The notes under the pieces are model-generated. The model did not search any database, was not told the origin of the DNA, and saw only the letters and a program-made list of their open reading frames with translations. This document shows, piece by piece, positions 41,061-46,136 of a stretch of 63,581 nt of DNA. The DNA comes from Acidimicrobiia bacterium. Its GTDB lineage: Bacteria; Actinomycetota; Acidimicrobiia; Spongiisociales; ZC4RG35. Within the stretch, counting starts at the first letter, position 1. The number at the start of each line of letters is the position of its first letter. Made by a program: the position numbers and the translations under genes. The stretch spans positions 1-63,581 of the forward strand of contig BPGJ01000014.1 in NCBI GenBank assembly GCA_026002975.1, given 5' to 3'.

Positions 41061-41226
41061 AGGATGCGGGAACCGTCAATGCCTGCGAGCGTTGCTGGGC
41101 ACCTCCGGGCCCCCGCGGGGAGGCCCGCTGCCTTCGACCCGGTAGGTGGCTGCCATCGCCATAAGCCATGCGGGCTGGACGCCCGGCTCGCGGGCGACTC
41201 GGCTGGCCCTGTGGGGGAGTGAGCCA

Positions 41227-42390
41227 GTGAAGAAAACCCTGGATCGGATCCACAGTCTGGAAGACCTGCAGCGCCTGGCGCGACGACGTTTACCACGGCT
41301 GGTGTCGGATTTTGTCGACGGGGGTGCCGACCGGGAAGTGACCCTGGCCAGCAACATGAGTGACTTCGACCGGATCGTCCTGTTGCCCCGGGCACTGGTC
41401 GACGTGTCCCGGCGAGACCTCACTGTCGAGGTCTTCGGCCGTCGGCTGGCGCTCCCGGTGGGCCTTGCTCCGGCCGGTCTCGCCAGGCTCGTCGACCGGG
41501 AAGGGGAGTTGGCTGCGGCGCGGGCGGCGGGCAAGGCGGGGACCGTTTTCTGTCTCTCCACTGCCTCCTCCTGCTCGATCGAGGAGGTAGCCGAGGTGGC
41601 CAGCGGACCCTTGTGGTTCCAGCTGTACCTCTGGCGCCACCACGAGGTGGTGGAAGATCTGGTGAGGCGGGCAGCCGCCGCCGGCTACGAGGCCCTGTGT
41701 TTGACCGTGGACGTGCCTGTGGTGGGCAAACGTCGTCGGGACTTGCGCAACGGCATGACCATTCCCCCTCGGGTGCGGTCGGCGGGGGCTCTCGACGCCG
41801 CCCGCCGGGTGCGCTGGTTGTGGAACCTGGCGTGGGGCGATCGGATCACCTTCCGCAACTTCCTCGGCCTCGCCGACGGTGACGACGCCACCTCGTTGGG
41901 GGCCTTCGTCAACCGGGAGCTGGTCAATCCCGCCGCTACCTGGGAGGACGTTGCCCGGCTGCGGGCCCTGTGGAAGGGGCCGTTGGTGGTGAAAGGCATC
42001 CTCACGGCGACCGACGCCCTGGCGGCGCTGCGGTGCGGGGCTGACGGTCTGGTTGTGTCCAATCATGGAGGACGGCAACTGGACGGTGCCCCATCTGCGG
42101 TCGCGGCTCTCCCCTCGGTGGTGGAGGCGGTGGGCGGACGGATTCCTGTCTACCTGGATGGGGGGGTGCGCAGCGGAGCGGACGTGGTACGAGCCAAAGC
42201 TCTCGGAGCGGGGATGGTGTTCGTAGGGCGCCCCTGGTTCTGGGGCTTGGCGGCGGGTGGCGAGGCAGGGGTGTCGCGAATGCTGGAGATCCTGGCGGAC
42301 GAAGTGGATCGGGTCCTGTCGTTGATCGGCCGTCCGGTCTTCGCGGAAGTGGGGAGGGACGCCGTGGGCGCTTACCAAACGGTAGTTTGA
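41227..42390 (+). CDS. FMN-dependent 2-hydroxyacid oxidase/dehydrogenase (LldD/mandelate dehydrogenase family)
   Basis: A 387-residue TIM-barrel flavoprotein. VSDFVDGGADREVTLASNMS, ALCLTVDVPVVGKRRRDLRN, VVKGILTATDALAAL and the active site SNHGGRQLDGAP are in family order. It oxidises L-2-hydroxy acids to 2-oxo acids. GTG 41227 was preferred over the frame start at 41146 because GGGGGAG lies just upstream and the domain begins soon after. Its end overlaps operator site 7. Confidence 0.9.
   Translation: MKKTLDRIHSLEDLQRLARRRLPRLVSDFVDGGADREVTLASNMSDFDRIVLLPRALVDVSRRDLTVEVFGRRLALPVGLAPAGLARLVDREGELAAARAAGKAGTVFCLSTASSCSIEEVAEVASGPLWFQLYLWRHHEVVEDLVRRAAAAGYEALCLTVDVPVVGKRRRDLRNGMTIPPRVRSAGALDAARRVRWLWNLAWGDRITFRNFLGLADGDDATSLGAFVNRELVNPAATWEDVARLRALWKGPLVVKGILTATDALAALRCGADGLVVSNHGGRQLDGAPSAVAALPSVVEAVGGRIPVYLDGGVRSGADVVRAKALGAGMVFVGRPWFWGLAAGGEAGVSRMLEILADEVDRVLSLIGRPVFAEVGRDAVGAYQTVV
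42374..42387. promoter_or_regulatory. Operator site 7 (degenerate)
   Basis: ACCAAACGGTAGTT, matching the left arm fully and one base from the complement of site 10. It lies in the last codons of the oxidase gene, 34 bp before 42421. TAGTTT (42383-42388) could be the -10. Confidence 0.55.
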
Positions 42391-42420: not shown

Positions 42421-43536
42421 ATGGCCCAGGTGCTCACTCTGGAGGAAGCCGAGGTCCAAGAGCACTTCTTCGCGGCGGGGTGGACCGACGGCCTACCTGT
42501 GGTGCCACCTACCCCCGAGCGGGTGGCAGCCATGCTGGAAGCGGGTTGGGTGGAGCGCGACGAGGTGATCGGCGCAGTACCACAGCGCAACCGGGAGGTC
42601 ACCGCGGAGATGGCGGCCATCCAGGCGGTGATGGCGGGGTGCAAGCCGGAGTATTTCCCGGTGGTGATAGCCGCCCTGCAAGCCATGCTGGACCCCGGGT
42701 TCAATGCCAATGCGGCCGTCACCTCCACCGGGGGAGCCGCGCTGTGTGTAGTGGTCTCCGGACCGGGGGCCCAGGCGTTGGGCCTAAACTCCCGGCACAA
42801 CGCGCTCGGTCCGGGTAACCGGGCCAATGCCACCATTGGCCGGACTCTGCGGCTGGTGGCCCTCAACCTGCTGGACGCCCGGGTTGGGAAACTGGACGGG
42901 TCGTCGCTGGGGCATCCGGGAAAGTACACCTTCTGCTTCGCTGAGGACCCTCCCCCTGAGCCATGGACACCGCTACGGGTCGACCTGGGGTTCGGGGAGG
43001 ACGACACCACCGTCACCGTCCTGGCCAGCGAGGGACCGCGCCAGGTAGCCAACCACCTGAACGAGAACGGTCGCGATATCTGCCTCACCTTCGCCGCTGC
43101 AGCGCGTACCCCGTCCACGTATGCGGTCGGCAAGGGACACCAGGCAATCGCGGTGTTCGGTCCCGAGCACCGGCAAGCTTGCATCGCCTCCGGTATGTCC
43201 AAGGCCGACGTTCGCAACCTCATCTACGAGGAGTCTCGCATCGCTCCTGCGGAGCTGGAGCGTTGGGGGGTGCTCCTCGAGCGCGGCTATCAGCACGACA
43301 TGACCCCCGATGCCGACGGCAAGCTGGCTACGATCGCCTCCCCGGACGACCTGTTTGTGGTGACCGCCGGCGGGGAGGGTGCCGGTTGGTCGGCCTACAT
43401 TCCGGCGTGGGCACCGATCCAGCACTCCCGGGCCACCACACGTCGCGTGCGGGAGCCGGGCGACCCGCTGCCAGCTTGCGGTCCGGAGGGGTGCCATCTG
43501 CCTCCAGAGTTCTTCACCCGTCTCGAGAAAGGCTGA
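42421..43536 (+). CDS. Protein of unknown function linked to the UGSC selenoprotein
   Basis: A complete 371-residue soluble protein; the ATG follows GAGGAGAGAGG. It opens with EHFFAAGWTDGLPVVPPTPE, has a Gly-rich stretch NALGPGNRANATIGRTLRLV and ends with CGPEGCHLPPEF, where Cys353 and Cys358 could form a disulfide or bind metal. Two further Cys sit near residues 75 and 105. I recall related genes beside UGSC-family genes in other bacteria, but no function is established. It precedes the selenoprotein gene by two bases. Confidence 0.8.
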   Translation: MAQVLTLEEAEVQEHFFAAGWTDGLPVVPPTPERVAAMLEAGWVERDEVIGAVPQRNREVTAEMAAIQAVMAGCKPEYFPVVIAALQAMLDPGFNANAAVTSTGGAALCVVVSGPGAQALGLNSRHNALGPGNRANATIGRTLRLVALNLLDARVGKLDGSSLGHPGKYTFCFAEDPPPEPWTPLRVDLGFGEDDTTVTVLASEGPRQVANHLNENGRDICLTFAAAARTPSTYAVGKGHQAIAVFGPEHRQACIASGMSKADVRNLIYEESRIAPAELERWGVLLERGYQHDMTPDADGKLATIASPDDLFVVTAGGEGAGWSAYIPAWAPIQHSRATTRRVREPGDPLPACGPEGCHLPPEFFTRLEKG

Positions 43537-43538
43537 TC

Positions 43539-44072
43539 ATGCGCCAGATCACCGTGTTCGTCCCGGTACCCGGGGAGGCCCCCGCTCGGCGCCTCGAACT
43601 TGCCCTTCGCCGGAGTCTGCCAGCGAATCCGGTCCTCACCGTTGTCGAGAACGGCAAACCGAAGGCTCGCGACCTGCTGATCTATATTGTCGAGGAGCTG
43701 TCCCCCCGGTTGCCCGGGGTGACCCTCGAGGTCTACTCCAAAGCGTCGGCAGGCAAACCTCTCGAAGGAGAGGAGGCTCGCCGGATCGCCGCTCGGTCAC
43801 ACCTGATACTCACCGGGGTGGGGGACTGAGCGGCCTGTTCTGCGTGCAGTCTGCACGATGCGGTTCAGATGGAGGAGTTGGGGGTGCCGGCCACCGTGGT
43901 CATAACCGAGCCCTTCCAAACGCTGGTGGCGACCCAGGCGCGTGCTTTGGGCCTCGCAGGTTATCACCATGTGATGGTCCCCCACCCCATCTCCTCGAAG
44001 GATGAGCCCTACCTGCGTCGCCTCGCCAGGGAGGTGGCGGATGCGGTGCTCCGCCAGCTGGTGGGGGAATAG
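43539..44072 (+). CDS. UGSC-family selenoprotein with Sec97 encoded by TGA
   Basis: A 177-residue protein if TGA 43827-43829 is read as selenocysteine; conventional reading stops at 96 residues. The upstream half ends RSHLILTGVGD and the same frame continues after TGA as AACSACSLHDAVQMEELG, then PATVVITEPFQTL and VMVPHPISSKDEPYL. UGSC-family proteins carry GVGD followed by Cys/Sec-Gly-Ser-Cys at this place, so the TGA sits exactly at the redox residue, here as U-A-A-C with a further Cys103. A SECIS-like hairpin follows. It is presumably a thiol/selenol redox protein. No selA, selB, selC or selD is in the window. A TGC/TGT misread as TGA is the alternative. Confidence 0.87.
43843..43857 (+). 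promoter_or_regulatory. SECIS-like hairpin downstream of the Sec TGA
   Basis: CGTGCA and TGCACG form a 6-bp stem around loop GTC. The apical G is 20 bases after the TGA, within the range for bacterial SECIS elements. The TGCAGTCTGCAC core closely resembles the E. coli fdhF element as I remember it (TGCAGGTCTGCAC), at the same distance. Confidence 0.7.
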
Positions 44073-44102
44073 GTGCCTCACCATCCAGGAGCCTCGAAGG
44101 TC

Positions 44103-46136
44103 ATGACACGGACGGTCGCCACCCACTGCCGCATATGCGAAGCGCTGTGCGGCATCATCGTGGAGGTCGACGGTGACCGGGTCGTGTCCGTAAAGGGGGA
44201 CCCGGCTGACCCGATATCAGCCGGATACACGTGCCCGAAGGGCCGCGCCATCCCTGTCTTGCACCATCATCCCCGTCGTTACGACTATCCCATGATTCGC
44301 CGTGGCGGCGATCTGCTGGCGGTGGATTGGGGGGAGCTGCTCGACGACCTGGAGGTTCGCCTCCGGGACGTAATCGGCCTGTGTGGCCCCGATGCGGTGG
44401 GAATCTACGCCGCCACCGGTTCGGCTTTCGATGCCAATGGTCGGCGAATGGCAGAGAAGTGGCTCAAGCTCATGGGGTCCCGTTCCCGCTACACCTCGGC
44501 CACCATCGACACGCCCTGTAAACCGATGGTGGCCGAAATGATGTGCGGGTTCGCCGGAGCGGTGCCGGCCCTCGACCGGGAGAACCCGGAGCTGGTTCTG
44601 CTCATCGGGGTCAACCCGGTCGTTTCCCACGGCCACCTCAACGCGTTTCCCGACCCGGTGACGACCATCCGGCGGCTGGCAGCCAAGGGCGAGGTGTGGG
44701 TGATCGACCCCCGGAGGAGCGAGAGCGCCCGCCTCGCTACCCGGCACCTGGCCCCCCGCCCGAGCAGCGACTGGGCGCTGCTGGCCTTTCTGGTGAGGGA
44801 AGCCCTGCGAGACGGGGTAGACCGCGACCGGCTGCAGGAGCGCGCCGACGGGGTGGACCGCCTGGAGGAGGCGGTATCTCCCTACCACCTGGAGGAGGCC
44901 TGCCGGCGGACCGGGCTGGGCACCGCTGAACTGGCCGAGCTGTCGGCTGCCGTGAGGACCAAGAAGGTGGCCATCCAGACCGGCACTGGGGTGACCATGT
45001 CGGCGCAAGCCAATGTCGTCGAGTGGTTGAGCTGGACGCTGCAGGTGGTCACCGACTCGTTCGATCGACCGGGCGGCTGCTGGTTCCATCCTGGCTACCT
45101 GCGTGCACTGGAGACTCGTCGTATCGAGCCGACGGAGGGCCGGGCGGAGCCCGGTCCCCCCAGTCGGCCGGAGCTCCCCCGGCGCCTCGGCGAGTACCCG
45201 GTGGCGGCGATGTTGGACGAGATCGAAGCGGGTAACCTGCGTGCCCTCTTCGTTCTCGGCGGTAACCCCATAACCGCTTTCCCGGAAGCGGACCGCACCA
45301 AGAAGGCTTTGGCATCACTCGAGGTCTTGGTGGTGGCGGACATCGTCGCCAACGAGATGACCCCTTTCGCTACCCATGTTCTGCCCTGCGCCGACCAGCT
45401 GGAACGATCTGACCTTCCCGTCTATGTTGACCAGTTTCTGCCGGTGGTTATGACCAAGTACTCTCCGCAAGTGGTGCCGCCGGGCGCCAGACGCCGGCCG
45501 ATGTGGTGGCCTTTCGCTCAGTTGGGGCGTCGGTTCGGTATAGACGTGATCGGTGAGGGAATCGACCCGGACCTCGCAACCGATGACGACTTGCTCCGTC
45601 CCCTGGGCGATCGCAGTCGGTCGGACTTCGCCTTCATTCGTACGAACCGGGTGGTGATCAACGACCCACCACAGATGTTCGGTTGGTTCTCCGACAAGGT
45701 GCTGGCCGGTCGCCGATGGCAGCTGGCTCCGCAGCCGCTGCTCGACCAGCTCGCTGGCTTGGCGCGGGCACCCGCCGAGGGGCTGCGTCTCATCCCCCGC
45801 CGCCAGGTCCGGCGCCTAAATTCGGTGCTCAGCGATCCGGACCGGCCCGAGGAGGCCACTCTCCTGGTCCACCCCGAAGACGCGGTCCGGGTGGGGATTG
45901 CCGACGGTCAGCCGGTGCTGGTCAGCTCGGAGCTGGGAACGTTGCGGGCCATCGCGGTGGTGTCCGACAGCATTCGGCCCGGGGCGGTGTCCCTCCCTCA
46001 TGGGTACGCCGATCCCAACGTGAGTGCCCTCACGTCGGCTCGGCAAGTCGACCCCCTGACCGGGATGGTGACTCAGTCGGGGCTCACTGTCCGTCTCAGC
46101 CCGGTTTCGTCTCTGTCCCCTACGGAGTTCCGGTGA
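44103..46136 (+). CDS. Molybdopterin-dependent oxidoreductase (DMSO-reductase family) with [4Fe-4S] site
   Basis: A 677-residue enzyme. CRICEALCGIIVEVDGD and later TCPKGRAIP supply the four Cys of the N-terminal cluster (CxxCxxxC...C). Mo-bisPGD-binding blocks include VLLIGVNPVVSHGHLNAFPD, VIDPRRSESARLA and VLGGNPITAFPEAD; the C-terminal domain has LLVHPEDAVRVGIADGQPVL. No Tat signal is seen, so it is cytoplasmic. The residue in IDTPCKPMVAE may be near the Mo ligand. ATG 44103 is chosen; GTG 44073, immediately after the selenoprotein stop, is the alternative. Electron partner not encoded nearby, so the adjacent selenoprotein is an obvious candidate. Confidence 0.88.
   Translation: MTRTVATHCRICEALCGIIVEVDGDRVVSVKGDPADPISAGYTCPKGRAIPVLHHHPRRYDYPMIRRGGDLLAVDWGELLDDLEVRLRDVIGLCGPDAVGIYAATGSAFDANGRRMAEKWLKLMGSRSRYTSATIDTPCKPMVAEMMCGFAGAVPALDRENPELVLLIGVNPVVSHGHLNAFPDPVTTIRRLAAKGEVWVIDPRRSESARLATRHLAPRPSSDWALLAFLVREALRDGVDRDRLQERADGVDRLEEAVSPYHLEEACRRTGLGTAELAELSAAVRTKKVAIQTGTGVTMSAQANVVEWLSWTLQVVTDSFDRPGGCWFHPGYLRALETRRIEPTEGRAEPGPPSRPELPRRLGEYPVAAMLDEIEAGNLRALFVLGGNPITAFPEADRTKKALASLEVLVVADIVANEMTPFATHVLPCADQLERSDLPVYVDQFLPVVMTKYSPQVVPPGARRRPMWWPFAQLGRRFGIDVIGEGIDPDLATDDDLLRPLGDRSRSDFAFIRTNRVVINDPPQMFGWFSDKVLAGRRWQLAPQPLLDQLAGLARAPAEGLRLIPRRQVRRLNSVLSDPDRPEEATLLVHPEDAVRVGIADGQPVLVSSELGTLRAIAVVSDSIRPGAVSLPHGYADPNVSALTSARQVDPLTGMVTQSGLTVRLSPVSSLSPTEFR

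Follow-up and report, generated by a model that had tools for sequence, protein, structure and literature searches.

A probable UGSC-family selenoprotein gene with a variant U-A-A-C motif and its adjacent partner gene in an Acidimicrobiia bacterium

The window analysed here, a stretch of 63,581 nucleotides of DNA from an Acidimicrobiia bacterium, carries a predicted UGSC-family selenoprotein gene on its forward strand at positions 43539–44072. Reading of this frame revealed a single in-frame TGA at 43827–43829, corresponding to residue 97, and a final TAG stop codon. With the TGA read through as selenocysteine (Sec) the product consists of 177 residues, MRQITVF...LILTGVGD-U-AACSACSLHDAV...LVGE*, in which Sec97 is the first residue of the sequence U-A-A-C-S-A-C. 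A candidate bacterial Sec insertion (SECIS) hairpin, CGUGCA-GUC-UGCACG, lies downstream of the TGA at 43843–43857 on the same strand. Immediately upstream lies an unnamed gene encoding 371 amino acids (42421–43536, forward strand; here called the partner), whose TGA stop is separated by 2 nt from the start codon of UGSC and which is itself preceded on this strand by a gene of the FMN-dependent hydroxyacid dehydrogenase family (41146–42390; Pfam/NCBIfam). Directly downstream, also on the forward strand, lies a molybdopterin oxidoreductase gene (44073–46136) with a GTG start and an in-frame ATG further in. Genes for acyl-CoA ligases, a short-chain dehydrogenase, a ketopantoate-reductase-like protein, a zinc alcohol dehydrogenase and a glyoxalase-fold protein are also found around the pair, and together these neighbours point to acid catabolism through CoA esters.

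The read-through product matches the Pfam UGSC family (PF24696) over residues 6–175 with 142.1 bits (E 2.6e-41), well above the curated cut-off of 25 bits, which bears out the original prediction of one in-frame TGA within a UGSC-family gene. The NCBI equivalog model NF041046 matches residues 33–174 with 114.6 bits when C is written in place of Sec, and so falls short of its curated cut-off of 125 bits. The source genome contains one UGSC copy. The window product resembles the family in matching it along the whole length, in having Sec at the column that holds Sec or Cys in its members, and in a Cys three residues on, U97-A-A-C100 being of the Sec/Cys-x-x-Cys form that serves as the UGSC criterion, and the columns of residues 97 and 100 are invariant over 42 UGSC rows (Sec written as C). 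It differs from the family in its score under the NF041046 cut-off, in a third cysteine that extends the motif to UxxCxxC, and in reading U-A-A-C rather than U-G-S-C, as the literal Gly-Ser between the redox residues is absent and Ala-Ala stands in its place.

Conventional annotation had been expected to split this gene into a truncated protein of 96 residues and a second small ORF. In the window the mechanical ORF call instead spans 42963–43829 and is 288 amino acids long, not 96, because the frame is open upstream. The expected split was, however, seen in a plasmid of Paracoccus ferrooxidans (CP038202.1; L125 5390–5959), where the deposited annotation breaks the UGSC gene into two hypothetical CDS flanking its TGA, an example of how annotation loses Sec members of the family. 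A selB gene (L125 10362–12137) lies about 4.4 kb beyond this split gene.

The homologue alignment gives Sec or Cys at the column of the TGA, as the prediction had placed it. Among 19 loci from named genome records this column holds TGA in four and TGC or TGT in 15, and a set of 79 distinct UGSC rows drawn from every source and selected by the U/C-x-x-C motif pattern has TGA in 56 and a Cys codon in 23. Identical rows were merged in this set, in which the window is L101; L113, L076, L077 and L047, which are without the motif pattern, and fusions carrying MGTS in its place, which fall below thresholds, are excluded. The 79 rows read UGSC (42), UGAC (10), UAAC (3), UGGC (1), CGAC (15) and CGSC (8), so that the first residue between the redox pair is Gly in 76 and the full Gly-Ser is found in 50. 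In a tree of the rows, built by a quick method and with several long branches flagged by the program, the window falls in a Sec clade (SH-aLRT 93) nested within a 25-row clade (support 100) with the motifs UAAC, UGAC or CGAC and a third cysteine that yields U/C-x-x-C-x-x-C. At least seven changes between Sec and Cys are needed on this tree. Two further genomes of this order share UAAC with TGA (loci L053 and L056). Since the nearest clade reads [U/C]GAC and two more genomes carry UAAC, the variant motif amounts to one Gly-to-Ala change. The departure from the name-giving motif is therefore real, but its description as an Ala-Ala replacement was somewhat overstated, as only the change of Gly to Ala is unusual. 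A Sec-type UGSC locus (L084) was also found in a record titled Bifidobacterium breve (CAMAWR010000001.1). This species is not known for selenocysteine, and the label looks doubtful.

Both sides of the TGA had been said to match UGSC proteins, and the PF24696 match over residues 6–175 is joined here by a frame-wise constraint that continues past the TGA. Compared with L053, the window differs at codon positions 1, 2 and 3 in 37, 29 and 63 of the 96 codons before the TGA and in 26, 17 and 47 of the 80 codons after it; the corresponding values against L056 are 38, 31 and 66 of 96 before and 27, 11 and 45 of 80 after. Judged from these codon comparisons, the frame is constrained no less strictly beyond the TGA than ahead of it. 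Such continued constraint weighs against the TGA being a true stop, where a recent nonsense mutation would have left a pseudogene or a protein of 96 residues. The gene just upstream does use TGA as its ordinary stop, but 55 further rows carry TGA in this column, UAAC with TGA recurs in the two other genomes of the order, and the Sec machinery is present in the genome, and we consider a true stop very improbable.

This machinery was readily located in the source genome (G000), a draft of 2.33 Mb in 20 contigs that is 84.61% complete. A tRNA-Sec with anticodon TCA lies at C1:111067–111158 and scores 74.7 bits versus a gathering cut-off of 47, selB is found at C7:45417–47177 with selA beside it at C7:47203–48510, and selD lies at C1:239504–240413 (L021, L022). 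All of the components named for the search by the original prediction (selA, selB, selC and selD) are thus accounted for, and the lack of Sec machinery that it had named beforehand as speaking for its refutation was not what we found. A second tRNA-Sec match over the cut-off (C8:75056, 49.7 bits) was set aside, as ARAGORN makes it a tRNA-Ser(tga). The selD gene itself has an in-frame TGA in GAG-U-ACK, a position that we take to be the place of the catalytic Cys/Sec; further on it shows a change of reading frame, with two overlapping matches in different frames, which is either an assembly error or real. A GRDB-like gene at C3:30472–30840 and just after (L137) contains a TGA in VPG-U-PMC and is probably a further selenoprotein of this genome. 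Three genes with a TGA at a Sec-like place were found in all, namely UGSC, selD and the GRDB-like gene. The tRNA-Sec, selA and selB also bear on the idea that TGA is read genome-wide as an ordinary amino acid such as Trp, or is leaky without Sec. We found no point in favour of this idea; the upstream gene and other partner genes end at TGA, the column is Cys and not Trp in the relatives read, and it can be considered hardly credible. SelB and tRNA-Sec would instead decode the TGA at 43827 as selenocysteine.

Bacterial SECIS elements have been modelled as a loop of 3–9 nt with G within its first two positions, commonly succeeded by G or U, on a stem of 4–16 bp located 16–37 nt from the UGA and with an energy of at most -7.5 kcal/mol (PMC13188914, accessible text). 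The window hairpin has a GUC loop that begins 19 nt after the UGA and a stem of six pairs, and an outer stem extends it to 43835–43868. The core alone has an energy of -6.3 kcal/mol, short of -7.5, and with the outer stem the hairpin reaches -12.3 kcal/mol and agrees with the model. By sequence comparison, this GUC-loop hairpin 19 nt downstream would steer Sec insertion. The GU of the loop derives from a Ser codon, AGT, and occurs in 55 of the 56 Sec rows versus two of the 23 Cys rows of the 79-row set, while all six core pairs form in 50 of 56 Sec rows versus two of 23 Cys rows. These rows are related, and a kinship-aware comparison of Sec and Cys rows retains no more than three independent contrasts on branches of good support (p 0.25). 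Folding energy counts against the hairpin: shuffled sequences folded as well as the 60 nt after the TGA in 189 of 200 cases and as well as the 37-nt stretch in 82 of 200, and the best local hairpin does not differ in energy between Sec genes (mean -12.2) and Cys genes (mean -13.2; 58 rows). A stem with GU arose in 1715 of 100000 synonymous redraws, too common to prove anything by itself. The hairpin-energy and redraw tests used 58 rows (47 Sec, 11 Cys), a set that is small in Cys loci because the motif pattern missed some, and are superseded by the 79-row comparison. What separates Sec from Cys genes is solely the constant position of the hairpin and the letters of its loop.

The loop also helps to judge whether the TGA is a sequencing or assembly error for a true TGC or TGT. 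The assembly is a draft of 20 contigs and the frame change in selD could be one such error, but two independent genomes have TGA and the same motif, and the window retains the Sec-type loop codon AGT and not the Ser codons of Cys-type genes, which makes an error of this kind an even more improbable explanation than a true stop. The Sec machinery, the Cys/Sec column and a hairpin that fits the bacterial SECIS model all support the selenocysteine interpretation originally proposed, and we conclude from these comparisons that 43539–44072 is very probably a genuine UGSC-family selenoprotein gene with its TGA decoded as Sec.

The partner gene accompanies UGSC with few exceptions. Within a phylum sample of 396 genomes, UGSC was matched in 29, the partner in 28 and both in 27, and all 27 sampled genomes with UGSC above the Pfam cut-off also have the partner. 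The two genomes with UGSC alone score 21.1 and 23.9 bits, under that cut-off, and one genome has the partner without UGSC. Among loci L023–L080, at least part of the partner is present in 54 of 56 with UGSC; in the two exceptions, L056 and L058, the UGSC match starts 67 and 155 bases from a contig end. All 19 loci from named genome records have the partner, truncated in one. The two domains are joined in one frame with no stop between in L047, L048 and L076, and plasmids of Sporomusa and Vibrio carry a UGSC-partner fusion as single deposited genes. The partner matched 24 plasmid records, of which 15 were opened, and UGSC lies beside or is fused to it in 14 of these 15 regions, counting a divergent form in Variovorax; in the Haladaptatus plasmid region (L124) no UGSC was found within 6 kb of the partner. 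Partner identity to homologues is 52–66% in alignment A3, and UGSC identity is lower at 44–54% (over L035, L041 and L081–L099). From the adjacency and the fusions we infer a physical complex, and UGSC and the 371-amino-acid partner are probably the subunits of a two-protein enzyme. The partner may be the 'Unknown_1' domain reported as fused to UGSC in the available text of PMC2398784.

For the partner, Pfam and NCBIfam yielded nothing at E up to 0.001 and just scattered weak matches for 20 homologues at E up to 1; a sequence search gave no relatives of solved structure, and hhalign gave no relation to the GrdB or UGSC profiles (E 0.47 and 0.27). Several genome matches to the partner contain internal TGAs, but in the loci inspected these lie near the match end where the gene stops, and the partner was rejected as a selenoprotein. 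It was likewise rejected as a class I fumarase. The partner gene of the window ends in a C-G-P-x-x-C tail (43480–43536), which is found in the window's clade and is missing from L088–L090 and from most of the other partner tails inspected. A C-x-x-C stretch (CSDC, CAEC) occurs in a C-terminal extension of the Arthrobacter UGSC protein (L112 9024–9839) and of the L084 partner (L084 6639–7934).

The UGSC product was modelled with a pLDDT of 93.1 as five strands alternating with helices, with Sec97 opening the helix that follows the third strand. It would consist of one alpha/beta domain with Sec97 followed by two cysteines (UxxCxxC). A thioredoxin-like fold has been suggested for UGSC (PMC2398784, in the text available). 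In a Foldseek search with our model the top seven matches are flavodoxin-like domains (TM 0.44–0.53) and no thioredoxin is among the best 50 of 1756 matches, which to some extent speaks against a thioredoxin-like fold. A sequence search for solved-structure relatives of UGSC gave one match (E 0.031), and no viral relatives were confirmed.

Profile comparison by hhalign aligned UGSC residues 94–173 with GrdB residues 340–416, Sec on Sec (P 1.7e-4, Prob 49%), against one template, an alignment of GrdB-like proteins fetched from the phylum. With the 79 UGSC rows the P value is 7.8e-5, or 4.9e-6 when query and template change places. None among 200 column shuffles came up to the score of 38.2, the highest attaining 31.0, and reversing the profile gave 18.7. 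The signal is specific but weak and comes from one template, and suggests that the Sec region of UGSC may resemble that of GrdB; the Pfam families listed for 42 UGSC members at E up to 10 did not include GrdB (PF07355). GrdB is described, in the accessible part of PMC13188914, as the component of glycine reductase that binds substrate and carries UxxCxxC, and thioredoxin is named there as the reductant of this system. UGSC and GrdB would have in common a Sec with x-x-C-like surroundings at a helix head and about 74 similar columns, Sec on Sec. In contrast to GrdB, UGSC is one small domain without the N-terminal 340 residues, its partner has no profile match to GrdB, and the fetched GrdB-like proteins read UGTGTRC/S. 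GrdB-like proteins occur in this phylum, with 13 near-full-length matches in 296 genomes, and the ten genes read (L127–L136) all have TGA followed by GTGTR. PrdB, the small subunit of D-proline reductase (TIGR04483), is by its available description also a small UxxC selenoprotein and is said to be homologous to GrdB (PMC13188914), but the UGSC partner gave no prdA-like match in Pfam or NCBIfam.

We tentatively propose, by analogy, that UGSC and its partner could form a two-subunit selenol/thiol reductase that is fed by thiols. The Sec would attack or reduce a substrate held jointly with the partner and would then be regenerated by thiols. This sequence of steps is suggested by the weak likeness to the GrdB Sec domain and by the thioredoxin reductase genes that lie beside a few relatives: near the partner these were found in Arthrobacter (with trxA), Variovorax and Roseovarius, three of 13 annotated plasmid regions. 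Against this, blastp with the plasmid trxB and trxA proteins gave no match in the window or in loci L018–L111. It is about equally possible that the pair is not a thiol-fed reductase but a lyase, a dehydratase or a binding protein in which the Sec/Cys has another role. The fused relatives of Sporomusa, Vibrio and L048 lack both redox residues, MGTS replacing the pair (L116 7317–9041 and L118 7323–9008, with L048), and two MGTS fusions adjoin aconitase X genes. Foldseek ranks class I fumarases first for the partner model (E 4.7e-5), but with TM values of 0.27–0.28 and an rmsd of about 16; moreover, U/C-x-x-C is kept in all 79 rows, though these were chosen by that motif, and trxB lies beside three relatives. 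In the Sporomusa and Vibrio plasmids DUF126 genes, too, lie near the MGTS fusions. The thiol-fed reductase can be drawn more fully, as an undescribed two-subunit enzyme that thioredoxin recharges and that acts in CoA-linked catabolism in actinobacteria, proteobacteria and haloarchaea, its selenol domain being of GrdB Sec-domain stock and its other subunit a new one for catalysis or substrate binding; in this complete form we regard the proposal as somewhat doubtful.

UGSC-containing selenoproteins are established, the GOS survey having counted 255 forms with Sec and 21 with Cys, and rank among the most abundant selenoprotein families in ocean survey data (PMC2398784, accessible text). The family is also listed in the accessible text of PMC13188914, and reviews of 2022 and 2026 list it, in the portions available, without a function. 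The UGSC passages accessible in papers on selenium or metalloproteins contain no mention of the partner as an adjacent gene, of a likeness to GrdB or of UAAC. The UGSC selenoprotein family itself is already known; any novelty would lie in the partner gene and in the link to GrdB. With a near-constant partner, fusions of the two proteins and a possible link to the GrdB Sec domain, the function of UGSC becomes testable as that of a two-protein enzyme.
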